Shown one piece after another: positions 12,549 through 62,503 of a DNA stretch of 64,000 nt; the stretch's first letter is position 1, and each line of letters starts with the position of its first letter. Location: assembly GCF_000702065.1 (NCBI RefSeq), contig NZ_JNKN01000001.1, positions 124,001 to 188,000 on the forward strand. Reading direction: 5' to 3'. The DNA comes from Kandleria vitulina DSM 20405. Its GTDB lineage: Bacteria > Bacillota_I > Bacilli_A > Erysipelotrichales > Coprobacillaceae. The notes under the pieces were generated by a model. It worked only from the letters and a program-made list of their open reading frames with translations, had not been told where the DNA came from and did no database searches. Position numbers and translations under genes: made by a program.

Positions 12549-12877
12549 ACGTCTGCTCTTGTAAGCCGTGTTCTGTTTTTCAACCAATCATTTCTCTTAG
12601 TTTCCTACCTGATGTCAGTTCAGTTCCTTCCATCAGACTCCCCTACCAAATTTGGGTTTCTACCTCGCGGAGTTTACCAACTTTTCACTCTTAGCTTTCG
12701 CTAAGCCATAGTCTCTGTGGCACTTTATGGCTAGCTCCATATCAAAGACTTAGGAGCATCGCCGTCGTCAACTTGCGTTGCCTAGGCTTATTGGGCCTAG
12801 CACGAACACTACGAGCATCACAGCTCGTGATAGCACGGACTTTCCTCTACTTCTAGCGATTGATTCTCGCAGACGCT
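12548..12877 (-). ncRNA. rnpB: RNase P RNA, bacterial class B
   Basis: The catalytic RNA of RNase P, which trims tRNA 5' ends. On the minus strand the 5' part contains the diagnostic GAGGAAAGTCC, and the 3' part contains AGAACACGGCTTAC. The ends pair as helix P1: CGTCTGC (12869-12875) with GCAGACG (12550-12556). The length of about 330 nt and the gpsB neighbour match the B-type RNA of Firmicutes. Its 5' end touches the gpsB stop codon (12876-12878). A -10-like TATAGT (12891-12896) inside gpsB is a possible promoter. End positions are good to a few bases only. Confidence 0.95.
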
Positions 12878-39017: not shown

Positions 39018-39048
39018 ATGTTTGTGTCACAATGTCTACAATAAATAT

Positions 39049-39178
39049 AGCGCCAGAACTCTTCGGAGTTGACGAGGACCAGATTTATCGAATATTCGGC
39101 GGATGATCTGGAGGTATGATGCTACCTGAACGATGGGCAAAACAAGAAGCAATTCTTGCACAAATTCCATTTGGCATC
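39049..39178 (+). ncRNA. glmS ribozyme-riboswitch
   Basis: The leader of glmS contains the conserved ribozyme core: AGCGCC at the cleavage site (cut expected between A39049 and G39050), GTTGACGAGG, TTTATCGAATATTCGGCGG and a downstream pairing region ending near TTTGGCATCATTC. Bound glucosamine-6-phosphate triggers self-cleavage and decay of the mRNA, lowering GlmS. P1 is capped by a CTTCGG-type loop. This accounts for most of the 346-base gap before glmS. Confidence 0.96.
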
Positions 39179-39219
39179 ATTCATTGTCGACACATATTTC
39201 ACTAATAGGAGGTCAAAAT

Positions 39220-42540: not shown

Positions 42541-42783
42541 AATATCATATAAAAAACATTGAAGTGACATAGTAAAGAGCACTGTGGCAAAAGAGATATC
42601 ACGGATGGTGAAAGTGATACGCAAAGGTTCTTGAATTCACCACGGAGTTATACAGCAGAAAAGCTGTTTCGGCAGTGCCCGTTATCGCACATGGTTCTTT
42701 GAACCTAGTAAGGCAGAACTTGTGAAAGTTATGCAACTAGAGGTGGTAACGCGTGGATTCGCCCTCTTGGGTGAGTCTTTTTT
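42541..42783 (+). promoter_or_regulatory. T-box leader, specifier read as UUC (Phe)
   Basis: Uncharged tRNA binding stops termination and turns on the transporter. Stem I shows AAGAGATATCAC, GGATGGTGAAA and GTGATA; then GAATTCACC, where TTC (42636-42638) sits between GAA and AC, the same frame as GAA-GCT-AC in the alaS T-box of this window. The antiterminator carries GGTGGTAACGCG (42742-42753). Its UGGU bulge pairs with a tRNA ending A-CCA, which fits tRNA-Phe and not the usual G73 of tRNA-Trp. The terminator is GATTCGCCC/GGGTGAGTC (42756-42777) plus six T. Confidence 0.93.
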
Positions 42784-57142: not shown

Positions 57143-57348
57143 AGTCGTTCCTATAAAAGGAACGACTATAATCGCGGTACCATCCTTATTCAAGGCTTAC
57201 GCCTTGCTCTTTATACCCTTAACGCAGGCTCACGTTGATGTTTACATCACTCTCCAAAGTAGCTTCCCCCATAGTCATGAGAAACTTGCACCATCCGTTT
57301 CCTCTCTTGCCACTTCTATAAGGTACTCTTCTTCTTCTACGATTTAAC
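57143..57348 (-). promoter_or_regulatory. T-box leader of alaS, specifier GCU (Ala)
   Basis: The minus strand shows stem I elements (AAGAGAGGAAACGGATGGTGCAAGTTT), the specifier GCT at 57261-57263 in the context GAA-GCT-AC, the antiterminator T-box GGATGGTACCGCG and the terminator AGTCGTTCC/GGAACGACT (57143-57167) with six U. The UGGU bulge fits the A73 of tRNA-Ala. It clearly reads its own amino acid and so calibrates the other T-box in the window. Confidence 0.95.
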
Positions 57349-58726: not shown

Positions 58727-59503
58727 TTACTTAATGAGTTCATAATGTCTTAAAGCCTTGACTATTCCATCATGATCAACATCATCACAGACATATTCCG
58801 CAATCTGCTTTAACTGCTCTTCACCATTGCCCATAGCGATCCCGTGAGCAACATGATTTAACATTTGCAGATCATTTCCCCCATCACCAAAGGCCATGGT
58901 TTCTTGTCTATCAATATTATAATAGGAAAGGAACTTATCAATACCTAACTGTTTTGTCCCTCCTAGCGGTGTGACATCAGTAAACAATGGATGCCATCTT
59001 GCACTTGTGCAGTGAGGCATTTTCTCAAGAAGTTTCTCTTCTTCCTGTTTAGATACAAAACACATAAGCTGGTAGACCTTCTCATCAAGAACACGTGAAA
59101 GATCTCCAGTAGGCTGATCATCATTATGTGTAATCGAATGAATTTCAGCGACACGCTTATCCTTATAATTATAGATTTTTCCAGTCTTCATAGTAAATCC
59201 ACAAGGGAATGGTTGTTCATCTAACACTTCCAATAATGAAGCAAGATCCTCTTTTTCAATAAAGTTCTCATAAACCACTTCTTTATTTGTATAACAATAC
59301 TGTCCGTTTAAAGTGATATAGCCATCAAAAGGAATATCTCCCAACACTTCTAATCCATCTTTAAAGCGACCAGTCGCAATAAAGATCTTTATACCATTAT
59401 TATGAAGCTGCCATAAGGCCTCTTTTGTAGAAGCTGGCATCTTGTGATTCTTGAAACTTACTAGTGTTCCATCAATATCAAAAAAAACTGCTTTAATATT
59501 CAT
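58727..59503 (-). CDS. HAD-superfamily Cof-type phosphatase
   Basis: 258 aa, Cof/YidA-like with a C2 cap. Motif I DIDGTLVSF (nucleophile Asp near residue 9), motif II in IATGRFKDG, motif III Lys in TKQLGIDK, and motif IV FGDGGNDLQML. Sugar phosphates or FMN are common substrates of relatives; no substrate can be fixed. Start ATG 59503 overlaps the LysR gene end, with AAAGGAGC upstream, so the two are coupled. Confidence 0.9.
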   Translation of the reverse strand: MNIKAVFFDIDGTLVSFKNHKMPASTKEALWQLHNNGIKIFIATGRFKDGLEVLGDIPFDGYITLNGQYCYTNKEVVYENFIEKEDLASLLEVLDEQPFPCGFTMKTGKIYNYKDKRVAEIHSITHNDDQPTGDLSRVLDEKVYQLMCFVSKQEEEKLLEKMPHCTSARWHPLFTDVTPLGGTKQLGIDKFLSYYNIDRQETMAFGDGGNDLQMLNHVAHGIAMGNGEEQLKQIAEYVCDDVDHDGIVKALRHYELIK

Positions 59504-60404
59504 TGTTCAATGCTCCTTTTAGACGCTCAATATACTTTAGTGCCTCATTTGAGAAGACATATCCTTTCCTATAGATCAAGAAATCCTTGATTACTATTTC
59601 ATAATCATTACATTCTTTTAAACAAAGATCATAACGATCCAATACACTCTTAGGAAGATGGGTGCTCCACATAAACGCATCATCCATGCTAGAAAGAAGA
59701 GAATACATCGTTTCTCTTTCACTAACCATGATGCTTCTATCAACGCCCTCCTTTTCTAGAAGTGACTGCACAAATGACATTGTATGTCCTGGCATAGATG
59801 TTCCGTGTATGATATGCACATCATTTTTAAGTTCACCAATAGAAAGCGTCTGTTTCTTTGCGTGAGGTGAGTGAGATGAAATAAGAAGCTTTAGTTTTGA
59901 AGTAGATAAAAGACTGCTTTTTATATTGCGGTAAAGCAACTGATTTTCATAATAGACTTCAGAAAAATCAAAGCATCTTAAAATACCAAAATCAACATCT
60001 CCATTTGAAACCTTCTCAATAATGTTCTTAGGTCCTTCTTCTTCATAATGAATATGATAAGAACTCTCTTTATTTTGAGAGATTAACTCTTTTAAGACTT
60101 CTACAAAAACAGATGATGAAGGGACTGCTACATGAAAAGAAAGTGTTTCCTCTAAACAGGACAAATGACTTAACTCATTAAAATCCTTAATGATATTCTC
60201 AATCTTAGCAATCACTTCCTGACCACGGTTGGTCACTTCCATACCATGATGAGAACGCTTAAAGATTTTTAAGCCTAAATCATTCTCTACTTCCTGAATA
60301 ACTTTTGATAAATAAGGCTGATTGAGATAAAGCACTTTAGCAGCCTTTGAGATAGATCCCTGCTTCTCTACTTCAAGAATATATCTTAAATGATCGATAT
60401 TCAT
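59493..60404 (-). CDS. LysR-family transcriptional regulator
   Basis: 303 aa from ATG 60404 after GAGGTG; an upstream frame start at 60413 overlaps that site. N-terminal winged helix-turn-helix (GSISKAAKVLYLNQPYLSKVIQEVE, about residues 15-40) and a C-terminal two-lobe effector domain (about 90-290). Coupled to the HAD phosphatase. It could regulate that gene or the divergent NifU/GGGtGRT operon. No T-N11-A operator was assigned. Confidence 0.93.
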   Translation of the reverse strand: MNIDHLRYILEVEKQGSISKAAKVLYLNQPYLSKVIQEVENDLGLKIFKRSHHGMEVTNRGQEVIAKIENIIKDFNELSHLSCLEETLSFHVAVPSSSVFVEVLKELISQNKESSYHIHYEEEGPKNIIEKVSNGDVDFGILRCFDFSEVYYENQLLYRNIKSSLLSTSKLKLLISSHSPHAKKQTLSIGELKNDVHIIHGTSMPGHTMSFVQSLLEKEGVDRSIMVSERETMYSLLSSMDDAFMWSTHLPKSVLDRYDLCLKECNDYEIVIKDFLIYRKGYVFSNEALKYIERLKGALNNEY

Positions 60405-60445
60405 TTTATTCACCTCGCATACTCCCTATTCTAACATAGGAAAAA

Positions 60446-60459
60446 TGAAAACGATACCA
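60446..60459. promoter_or_regulatory. Probable cre-like site upstream of the LysR gene
   Basis: TGAAAACGATACCA fits the loose cre form (WTGNAANCGNWNNCW) and differs at one position from the stricter one. It overlaps the likely -35 of the LysR gene (TAGAAT -10 at 60428-60433). Confidence 0.45.
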
Positions 60460-60592
60460 TTATTATCCTGCTTCATTTCCGCATATATCAAATAGTTATC
60501 AAAAATACAAATGTTTTATCCCAAGGCGTACAAAAAGGCATTTTTTCTTAAGAAATTAAGGATTTTATCTTTCATATTTTCAAGAAAAGTAA

Positions 60593-60755
60593 TAATATAG
60601 ATACAGGGAAATGCAATCCTTGGGATCAGAATCCCTAAAGAGCTTCTGGCTAATAATAAGTACTACAATTATAAGGGTGCTTTTTCATGCTTATATGGTG
60701 TGGGTATGAAAAATGAGTTATTAGTTTATCGTTAATTAAAGGAGGAAAAAATTTA
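60593..60755 (+). promoter_or_regulatory. Promoter and structured leader of the NifU-like/GGGtGRT operon
   Basis: A TAATAT -10 at 60593-60598 would start a leader of about 150 nt. It contains a nested hairpin in AGGGAAATGCAATCCTTGGG and what follows (AGGGA with TCCCT, ATCC with GGAT; about 60604-60636). It also has a 10-bp stem TTTTTCATGC/GTATGAAAAA (60681-60690 with 60704-60713, one G-U pair). No terminator T run follows. I do not recognise a known riboswitch class. The rest of the 351-base gap from 60405 holds the LysR promoter and the cre-like site. Confidence 0.45.
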
Positions 60756-61448
60756 ATGATCTATTCATCAGAAGTAAAGAACATGTGTCCTGTCACACAA
60801 GGCGCTCATCACGGTTGTGCTCCTATTCCTGAAGAAGGAAAATGGGTATACTCAAGAGAAATCAAAGATATCTCTGGTTACACTCATGGTATCGGTTGGT
60901 GTGCTCCACAGCAAGGTACTTGCAAACTTTCATTAAACGTTAAGGAAGGTATCATCGAAGAAGCATTAATCGAAACAGTAGGATGCTCAGGTATGACTCA
61001 CTCTGCAGCAATGGCTGCTGAAGCTTTATCAGGAAAAACTATCCTTGAAGCTTTAAACACTGACTTAGTTTGTGATGCAATCAACACTGCAATGAGAGAA
61101 TTATTCTTACAGATTGTTTACGGACGTACTCAGTCAGCATTCTCTGAAAATGGTTTAGTTATCGGTGCTGGTCTTGAAGACTTAGGTAAAGGTTTACGTT
61201 CAATGGTTGGTACTGCTTACTCAACAAACGCTAAAGGACCTCGTTACCTTGAATTAACTGAAGGTTACATCACTAGAAACGCTTTAGATGAAAATAATGA
61301 AATCATCGGTTACGAATTCGTTAACTTAGGTAGAGTTATGGAAATGGTAAAAGATGGTATGGATGCTAATGAAGCAATCAAAAAAGCAACAGGTACATAC
61401 GGCAGATTTGCAGACGCTGCTAAATACATTGATCCAAGAAAAGAATAA
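60756..61448 (+). CDS. NifU/IscU-like iron-sulfur scaffold family protein
   Basis: 230 aa, starting at ATG 60756 after AGGAGG. A NifU_N-like core: the cysteines HHGCAPIPEEG, GWCAPQQGTC and ETVGCSGMTHSAAMAAEAL resemble the three-Cys scaffold of IscU, with LSLNVKEGIIEEALIETVGC as the strand before the third. The C-terminal third (NLGRVMEMVKDGMDANEAIKK and beyond) is an addition not found in classic scaffolds. Codon use is highly biased, suggesting strong expression. Always read together with the next gene, 20 bases downstream. Confidence 0.8.
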   Translation: MIYSSEVKNMCPVTQGAHHGCAPIPEEGKWVYSREIKDISGYTHGIGWCAPQQGTCKLSLNVKEGIIEEALIETVGCSGMTHSAAMAAEALSGKTILEALNTDLVCDAINTAMRELFLQIVYGRTQSAFSENGLVIGAGLEDLGKGLRSMVGTAYSTNAKGPRYLELTEGYITRNALDENNEIIGYEFVNLGRVMEMVKDGMDANEAIKKATGTYGRFADAAKYIDPRKE

Positions 61449-61468: not shown

Positions 61469-62470
61469 ATGGCAATTACATTTGAAGGTTACGAAAGACG
61501 TATTAACCAAATCAACAAAACTCTCAACGAATATGGTATCAAAGATATCGAAGAAGCAAAAAAAATCTGCGATGATGCTGGTATCGATGTTTATAATATC
61601 GTTAAGTCTACTCAGCCAATCTGCTTCGAAAACGCATGTTGGGCTTATACTGTAGGTGCTGCTTTAGCACTTAAGAAAGGTGACAAGAAGGCTGCTGACG
61701 CTGCTAAAACTATCGGTGTTGGTTTACAGTCATTCTGTATCCCTGGTTCAGTTGCTGATGACCGTAAAGTAGGTTTAGGTCATGGTAACTTAGGTTCAAG
61801 ATTATTAGATGAAGAAACTAAATGTTTCGCATTCTTAGCTGGTCATGAATCTTTCGCAGCAGCTGAAGGTGCAATCAAGATTGCATTAAACGCTAACAAA
61901 GTAAGAAAAGAACCATTAAGAGTTATCTTAAACGGTTTAGGTAAAGATGCTGCTAAGATCATCTCAAGAATCAATGGTTTCACTTATGTTGAAACTCAGT
62001 TCGATTATTTCACTGGTGAAGTAAAAGAACTTTCAAGAACTCCTTACAGCAATGGTGACAGAGCTAAAGTAAACTGCTATGGTTCTGATGACGTACGTGA
62101 AGGTGTTGCTATCATGCATAAAGAAGGTGTAGATGTATCAATCACTGGTAACTCTACTAACCCAACTCGTTTCCAGCATCCAGTAGCTGGTACATACAAA
62201 AAAGAATGTATCGAAATGGGTAAAAAATACTTCTCAGTTGCATCAGGTGGTGGAACTGGTCGTACATTACATCCAGATAACATGGCAGCAGGTCCTGCTT
62301 CTTATGGTATGACTGATACTATGGGACGTATGCATTCTGATGCTCAGTTCGCTGGTTCTTCTTCTGTACCTGCTCACGTAGAAATGATGGGCTTAATCGG
62401 TATGGGTAACAACCCAATGGTTGGTGCTACTGTAGCAGTAGCTGTAGCTATTGAAGAAGCTTCTAAATAA
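61469..62470 (+). CDS. GGGtGRT family protein, function unknown
   Basis: 333 aa with the family-naming motif SGGGTGRTLHPDN (near residue 265). Also GLGHGNLGSRLL and TGNSTNPTRFQHPVAG. Several conserved Cys and His (CFENACWAY, CIPGS, GHESFAAAEG) suggest a metal or cluster site. No signal peptide. The family is known to be encoded beside a NifU-like partner, but no activity is established. Strong start (GGGGGAG) and codon bias indicate high expression. An Fe-S-dependent enzyme is a plausible inference only. Confidence 0.88.
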   Translation: MAITFEGYERRINQINKTLNEYGIKDIEEAKKICDDAGIDVYNIVKSTQPICFENACWAYTVGAALALKKGDKKAADAAKTIGVGLQSFCIPGSVADDRKVGLGHGNLGSRLLDEETKCFAFLAGHESFAAAEGAIKIALNANKVRKEPLRVILNGLGKDAAKIISRINGFTYVETQFDYFTGEVKELSRTPYSNGDRAKVNCYGSDDVREGVAIMHKEGVDVSITGNSTNPTRFQHPVAGTYKKECIEMGKKYFSVASGGGTGRTLHPDNMAAGPASYGMTDTMGRMHSDAQFAGSSSVPAHVEMMGLIGMGNNPMVGATVAVAVAIEEASK

Positions 62471-62481
62471 TTAACGACTAA

Positions 62482-62503
62482 AAAGACTCCCTCGGGAGTC
62501 TTT
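62482..62503 (+). terminator. Terminator of the GGGtGRT operon
   Basis: A 9-bp stem AAAGACTCC/GGAGTCTTT with loop CTCG, followed by a T-rich tract. Confidence 0.8.

Follow-up and report, generated by a model that had tools for sequence, protein, structure and literature searches.

How is the expression of the NifU-like/GGGtGRT gene pair achieved, and what part is played by the RNA leader that precedes it? A conserved leader provides a handle on the way in which this gene pair is expressed. In passages of PMC11204068, GGGtGRT is presented as a poorly characterised protein with high in vivo expression in a number of gut anaerobes. Passages of PMC5395762 report that in C. pasteurianum, in the early phase with iron, GGGtGRT was 7.1-fold higher and a NifU-related protein 2.4- and 3.7-fold higher (two spots). 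In B. thetaiotaomicron, where a NifU gene lies beside GGGtGRT (BT0173-74), an 11- to 12.8-fold decrease upon iron depletion is given in an excerpt of PMC10434189. These iron data were obtained in other lineages, whose leaders differ. As for the leader of the NifU-like/GGGtGRT operon, no literature was found in the portions of text returned by an open-access search.

The operon and its surroundings

The analysis bears on a stretch of 64,000 nucleotides from Kandleria vitulina DSM 20405 (genome G000), hereafter the window. The leader is held in an intergenic space of 342 nt, flanked on one side by a divergent LysR-type gene (59493-60413, minus strand) and on the other by the gene pair. The first gene of the pair (60756-61448, plus strand) encodes a NifU_N-like protein of 230 aa, which passes the Pfam NifU_N cutoff by a small amount and matches the NCBIfam NifU/IscU/SufU models weakly, below cutoff. 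The second (61469-62470, plus strand) encodes the GGGtGRT protein of 333 aa (Pfam PF14057, E 1.2e-196). On its 3' side, at about 62482-62503 on the plus strand, a hairpin resembling an intrinsic terminator, AAAGACTCC-CTC-GGGAGTCTTT, was recognised by eye. The two genes look like a two-gene operon. When the effective codon number was computed for the 43 ATG-started open reading frames of at least 200 codons, listed mechanically in the window, the two genes of the operon had the lowest and the second-lowest values (30.9 and 34.5). The operon is probably very highly expressed.

Two other candidates around the leader were rejected. The LysR-type protein was dismissed as a regulator of the operon since its gene is not a neighbour of the operon in two relatives, G019 and G020; the upstream neighbour there looks, from its translation, like a co-directional ABC transporter. 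A reading frame that opens at the ATG at 60611, upstream of the gene pair, was dismissed because it is not conserved, the frame of G020 stopping after five codons; by eye, it also has no ribosome-binding site at the proper spacing.

Structure of the leader

A preliminary description of this DNA had placed one nested hairpin at 60604-60636. Such a fold is possible, at -8.7 kcal/mol, but two tandem hairpins are equally stable in the window, at -8.9 kcal/mol. As the conserved form, the nested fold was rejected: in G020 the tandem arrangement reaches -10.0 kcal/mol versus -3.5 kcal/mol for the nested one, and G019 folds in tandem at -7.8 kcal/mol, its sequence offering no nested form that could be imposed. 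According to these folding models, the region is better read as two tandem hairpins, the form that relatives have kept. The first of them, P1 (60605-60621), consists of AGGGA and UCCUU around a loop of 7 nt and is the predicted 5'-terminal hairpin. The second, P2, GGGAU(CAGA)AUCCC (60622-60635), abuts P1. A core of 23 nt, CCCTAAAGAGCTTCTGGCTAATA, occupies 60633-60655.

The 3' part of the leader is predicted to form a three-way junction. Its closing helix, P3, pairs UGGCUAAUA with UAUUAG(U)UUA (60647-60728) and encloses two hairpins, P3a (60659-60681) and P3b (60682-60712); like P1, P2 and the core, all are on the plus strand. P3b corresponds to the 10-bp stem with a 13-nt loop of the preliminary description, which was recovered exactly as it had been drawn (60681-60690 with 60704-60713, one pair being G-U); the minimum-energy fold lengthens it to 14 bp (60682-60695 with 60699-60712). 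Further downstream, a strong Shine-Dalgarno sequence, AAAGGAGG (60738-60745, plus strand), is mostly unpaired in the ensemble, the mean unpaired probability of its GGAG being 0.80 in the window and 0.83 in G020. The start codon is mostly paired in the window fold (unpaired probability 0.05, and 0.40 in G020), which argues for some repression.

The strength of this structure was estimated with shuffled sequences. For the whole leader (60604-60755) the z-score was -1.71, with 10 of 200 shuffles as good, and a repeat gave -1.54 with 24 of 300. A longer stretch (60590-60770) gave -2.09 with 8 of 200, and the inner 63 nt between the strands of P3 gave -3.40 with 5 of 1000. The 3' half is clearly above chance and the whole leader only mildly so; the main support is given by the relatives.

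Relatives sharing the leader of the window

At least 577 relatives were found, and the upstream regions of the best 80 were compared by eye; the same leader was seen in only one of these 80, L001 (RUG246), which is also G020 (L087 among the leaders). Its NifU-like protein is 91% identical to that of the window. Between the two genomes the core shows no difference and the segment running from UAUUAG to the Shine-Dalgarno sequence almost none; the DNA between these conserved stretches, and upstream of them, has diverged. The inner 62 nt of G020, different in sequence, fold into the same two-hairpin junction (z-score -3.31, 3 of 1000 shuffles as good). P3, P3a and P3b are on this ground considered a three-way junction shared by both genomes. 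Both strands of P3 itself are identical in G020. G019, which belongs to the genus of G020, retains P1, P2 and a simpler third element (z-score -3.21, 0 of 200 shuffles), not the core. Read from the folds, the fourth pair of P2 is A-U in the window and U-A in both G020 and G019, and one G-C pair of P1 in the window is A-U in G019. RNAalifold, applied to the window and G020 alone, reported two pairs changed on both sides; the inner hairpins are out of register in the alignment used. Two three-sequence alignments (A2 and A4) mis-register P1 and P2 and were left out of the counts; model R1 is alike weak in P1 and P2.

The core is single-copy in the genome of the window. When up to 3 mismatches were allowed in 315 genomes of the order, it was found only in this genome, in G020 and, with 3 mismatches, in G006 (L083), where the match lies inside a coding sequence and was discarded. 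A covariance model was built from G000 and G020, both of which match it by construction; beyond these two, it detected nothing better than E 0.038 in the 43 genomes of the family. Among 395 genomes drawn from the class it retrieved only G000, G020 evidently not being in the draw. No exact 18-mer of the core was found in viral contigs, and the leader was not found in plasmids. Since the core was found in two genomes only, it does not represent a riboswitch class widespread among the genomes searched.

A hairpin at the predicted 5' end of the leaders of the family

The 5' part of the leader has a much wider distribution. The NifU-like gene is present in 32 of the 43 family genomes, and usable leaders were extracted from 30 of them, representing 16 genera (the genes of G005 and G014 are fragments and gave no leader). 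In L102 and L114 the script had misplaced the promoter, and these two leaders were trimmed by eye to the hairpin. Identical leaders were counted once, which left 27 unique leaders for folding z-scores and start-region pairing and 24 for the comparison with controls. A front hairpin of 5-7 bp equivalent to P1 was found in 30 of 30 leaders, this count being taken from the best stem starting at AGG, without shuffles. Across the 16 genera, its fourth pair exists in five types (U-A, U-G, G-C, G-U and A-U) and its fifth pair is G-C in 13 genera and A-U in 3. The loops vary in sequence and in length, from 3 to 9 nt, and G-U is tolerated at pairs 2, 4, 6 and 7. What has been conserved in P1 is thus the structure, not the sequence.

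The same hairpin could be viewed as a DNA operator, an inverted repeat bound by a repressor just downstream of the -10 box, the RNA hairpin being incidental. In many relatives the promoter is indeed followed immediately by AGGTGA...TCACCT, an inverted repeat that is nearly perfect. The spacing of the half-sites nevertheless varies with the loops, the tolerated G-U wobbles would break a DNA palindrome, the second hairpin covaries too in the sister leaders (see below), and in the two relatives mentioned above the operon does not have the divergent LysR-type gene of the window as a neighbour. The G-U pairs, the varied loops and the pair changes favour an RNA hairpin, and a DNA operator is judged quite improbable.

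For the first 26 nt, a folding energy of -3 kcal/mol or better was obtained in all 24 unique family leaders and in 6 of 19 control promoters, the latter taken from stretches of four family genomes and from the window; the medians were -7.2 and 0.0, respectively. The family leaders are related, so that these counts are not independent. A smaller control set, with 4 family promoters among its 12, agreed in direction. Hairpins at the 5' end are not exclusive to this operon, as the six control promoters that have one attest. The folding z-score is negative in 27 of 27 unique leaders and -2 or lower in 14 of them.

The hairpin that follows P1 was studied in ten aligned sister leaders, drawn from the 27 family leaders other than those of G000, G019 and G020, the structure being derived from the same ten sequences. 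Six of its nine pairs have changed on both sides. The covariation score of the whole structure was 0.242 versus 0.131 in shuffles (0 of 500 as high), and the number of pairs changed on both sides was 6 versus 3.5 (10 of 500). Sliding the pairing partner always lowered the score, the best value being 0.169 at +1; at this slide 7 pairs instead of 6 have changed on both sides, but in fewer cells (11 versus 16). For P1, no pair has changed on both sides within these ten leaders. Structure is conserved among relatives, as the preliminary description would require: P1 across the family and the next hairpin of the sister leaders both covary.

These results bear on another view, that of an unremarkable leader in which most of the structure would be incidental. 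The leader of the window is, taken alone, weakly unusual according to the shuffles reported above, and the whole-leader z-scores of the family (median -2.33) are not significantly below those of the 9 controls of usable length (median -1.21, p 0.077), both of which agree with this view. It is difficult to reconcile, however, with the compensating changes in P1 and in the next hairpin, with the constant position of P1, or with a shared junction and an identical 23-nt core amid otherwise diverged intergenic DNA. Incidental structure is consequently held to be improbable.

Beyond the family, a 5' hairpin of this type (-3 kcal/mol or better) was detected in 11 of 27 scannable leaders versus 2 of 8 controls (p 0.048); its occurrence there is patchy, not universal. 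Five leaders (L012, L018, L024, L034 and L035), from metagenome-assembled genomes named Eubacteriales, Clostridiales, Clostridia or Oscillospiraceae, have a hairpin of different sequence, of the GGAAAA...UUUUCC type, directly after the -10 box.

Promoter and transcription start

In the family leaders, about 5 nt separate the end of the -10 box from the CAGG or TAGG of P1. By analogy, a putative -10 box, TAATAT (60593-60598, plus strand), can be proposed in the window 5 nt before P1; it is weak (4 of 6 positions) and has no good -35 box. The script had placed the -10 box of the window at the overlapping AATAAT, and a search by consensus found no plus-strand promoter at 60380-60800. The script placed a -10 box 5 nt or so upstream of P1 in 28 of the 30 family leaders; in L102 and L114 it settled on a different position, yet a TATAAT is visible just before the hairpin. 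Transcription would, by this analogy, start at about 60603. Given that a script-placed promoter directly precedes P1 in those 28 leaders, transcription seems unlikely to begin downstream of 60713; the promoter of the window itself is weak.

Most sister leaders have a TTGACT or TTGACA -35 box. In the three genomes of the window's branch (60560-60600 in the window, L086 and L087), the -35 boxes are off-consensus, with 3-4 of 6 positions, which could reflect dependence on an activator or compensation by the leader.

Pairings near the Shine-Dalgarno sequence and the start codon

Several pairings compete at the 3' end of these leaders. An element, AAUCAUUUU, can pair with the start-codon region over 9-10 bp in 8 of the 27 unique leaders (L090, L098, L099, L100, L104, L105, L106 and L111). 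The same element is complementary to the bases just before the Shine-Dalgarno sequence, and could in its own right constitute a translational switch. In many leaders the alternative is a small hairpin whose 3' end immediately precedes the Shine-Dalgarno sequence; in the window and G020, it is P3 that competes with a hairpin beside that sequence. RNAalifold preferred the start-region helix for the ten sister leaders. Seven of its nine pairs never vary and none has changed on both sides, so that this helix gains no support from covariation. Its mean length over the 27 leaders is 7.3 versus 6.3 in shuffled leaders; three of the eight leaders with 9-10 bp have 5% or fewer shuffles as good, and the value for the window is 27%.

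In the window and G020, the core itself may reach into the coding sequence. Its segment GCUUCUGG (60642-60649) is complementary over 8 bp to UCAGAAGU in codons 5-7 (60768-60775, plus strand), and 2.75% of shuffled linkers are equally good in the window and 3.1% in G020. The pairing is put forward as a hypothesis only. It is preferred over a pairing of the core with the Shine-Dalgarno sequence when the start of the coding region is included. The latter pairing, through CUUCU, was rejected: it is predicted only when the coding region is left out, and otherwise it loses to the alternative (-39.5 versus -45.6 in the window, -43.3 versus -47.8 in G020). Codons 1-7 are identical between the two genomes, while the gene-wide identity is 72% among the codons that could differ synonymously; this proves little because the gene contains other, longer identical runs, of up to 18 codons. 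G019, in which the core is absent, uses other serine codons there, and its linker can pair instead with codons 1-3 (7 bp, 14% of shuffles).

Such pairings invite the idea of a regulated translational switch, in which the start codon would be freed or hidden depending on iron, on Fe-S status, on an RNA-binding protein or on a small RNA. Mutually exclusive pairings do exist, between AAUCAUUUU and the start region and between P3 and the hairpin beside the Shine-Dalgarno sequence, and the operon responds to iron in C. pasteurianum and B. thetaiotaomicron, as far as the passages of PMC5395762 and PMC10434189 relate. Against this stand a start-region helix that barely varies, exceeds shuffles only modestly and is missing from many leaders, iron data that come from lineages with different leaders, and a core that is single-copy in the genome of the window and was found in two genomes only. 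A switch is possible but rather unlikely. A narrower form of the idea is that of an iron- or Fe-S-responsive RNA: iron would free the start codon, so that the mRNA, protected at its 5' end, would be translated and, without iron, the start region would be clamped by the NifU-like scaffold, by another protein or by a metal-free fold of the leader. If this were true, the iron dependence of the operon in other bacteria would be explained at the RNA level; it is regarded as very improbable.

A leader that may stabilise the mRNA

The preliminary description had announced that no terminator follows the leader and that it matches no familiar riboswitch class. No terminator-like site was indeed detected at 60380-60800, and no Rfam family (Rfam 15) reaches its gathering score in the leader of the window. 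For a structured leader that is kept in relatives and has neither terminator nor Rfam match, control of mRNA stability or of translation is the natural reading, as had been suggested from the outset. The preliminary description is largely correct in what it observed and partly so in how it read it; that the role of the leader would be regulatory rather than constitutive is unsupported.

The explanation towards which the analysis leans slightly is that of a leader with a stem-loop at its 5' end and a strong ribosome-binding site, which would stabilise the message of an operon expressed at a high level, the added domain shaping the initiation of translation. The transcript would start at about 60603, with P1 at its extreme 5' end. 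P1, beside P2, would hide this end from 5'-phosphate removal and from decay of the RNase J type. Together with an exposed AAAGGAGG, this protection would yield a long-lived and well-translated mRNA, as for aprE of B. subtilis and ompA of E. coli. The junction formed by P3, P3a and P3b would pack the rest of the leader and present the ribosome-binding site, and the core may touch codons 5-7.

Computation established the hairpins conserved with compensating changes, their site just after the -10 box and the junction held by two diverged sequences. Several observations weigh against the stabilising role: the elaborate 3' domain exceeds the needs of a stabiliser, the weak promoter of the window sits ill with the presumed high expression of the operon, the start codon is mostly paired in the window fold, 5'-terminal hairpins are also present in control promoters, and outside the family the hairpin occurs only here and there. 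The 5'-end hairpin recurs in 30 leaders of 16 genera within one family; if it were a stabiliser only, the leader would be a useful but ordinary element.

Comparison with known RNA classes and leaders

A relaxed Rfam search of the window locus gave five matches, with 12.6-19.7 bits versus gathering scores of 37-110; the best, to speF (E 0.011), lies at 60420-60502, outside the leader. The core loosely resembles the consensus of the c-di-GMP-I (GEMM) riboswitch. The likeness is superficial, and the Rfam listing up to E 10, with its five matches, does not contain this class. In 16 of the loci collected two matches were obtained, both close to the gene and neither of them in the leader: a ZMP/ZTP riboswitch in L114 (3548-3625, plus strand) and a T-box leader in L112 (2459-2686, plus strand).

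Elsewhere in the window, known RNAs were recognised. T-box leaders reach the gathering score at 57155-57348 (minus strand) and 42550-42769 (plus strand). The former lies upstream of a gene, which presumably encodes an alanyl-tRNA synthetase, and overlaps its TTG-extended start. A glmS ribozyme (39038-39183, plus strand) and a class B RNase P RNA (12561-12867, minus strand) are also present.

The leader of the NifU-like/GGGtGRT operon is real and structured; Rfam does not include it, and the kind of element to which it belongs is a known one. Two kinds of leader come closest to it. With translational riboswitches and autogenous leaders, such as that of B. subtilis L20 (PMC6097659), it shares a structured nature, the lack of a terminator and competing pairings near the Shine-Dalgarno sequence and the start codon; it differs from them in having no Rfam match and a core found in two genomes only. 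The second kind, that of aprE, ompA and papA, combines a hairpin at or near the 5' end with a strong ribosome-binding site and an abundant mRNA, and involves neither terminator nor ligand. Works on the B. subtilis aprE leader and on the 5'-terminal stem-loops of E. coli ompA and papA mRNA are cited in PMC3997798. Unlike these, the leader of the window has tandem hairpins, a three-way junction and a 23-nt core, and its stabilising role is a prediction; like them, it has a strong ribosome-binding site, here downstream of a hairpin that would lie at the 5' end.
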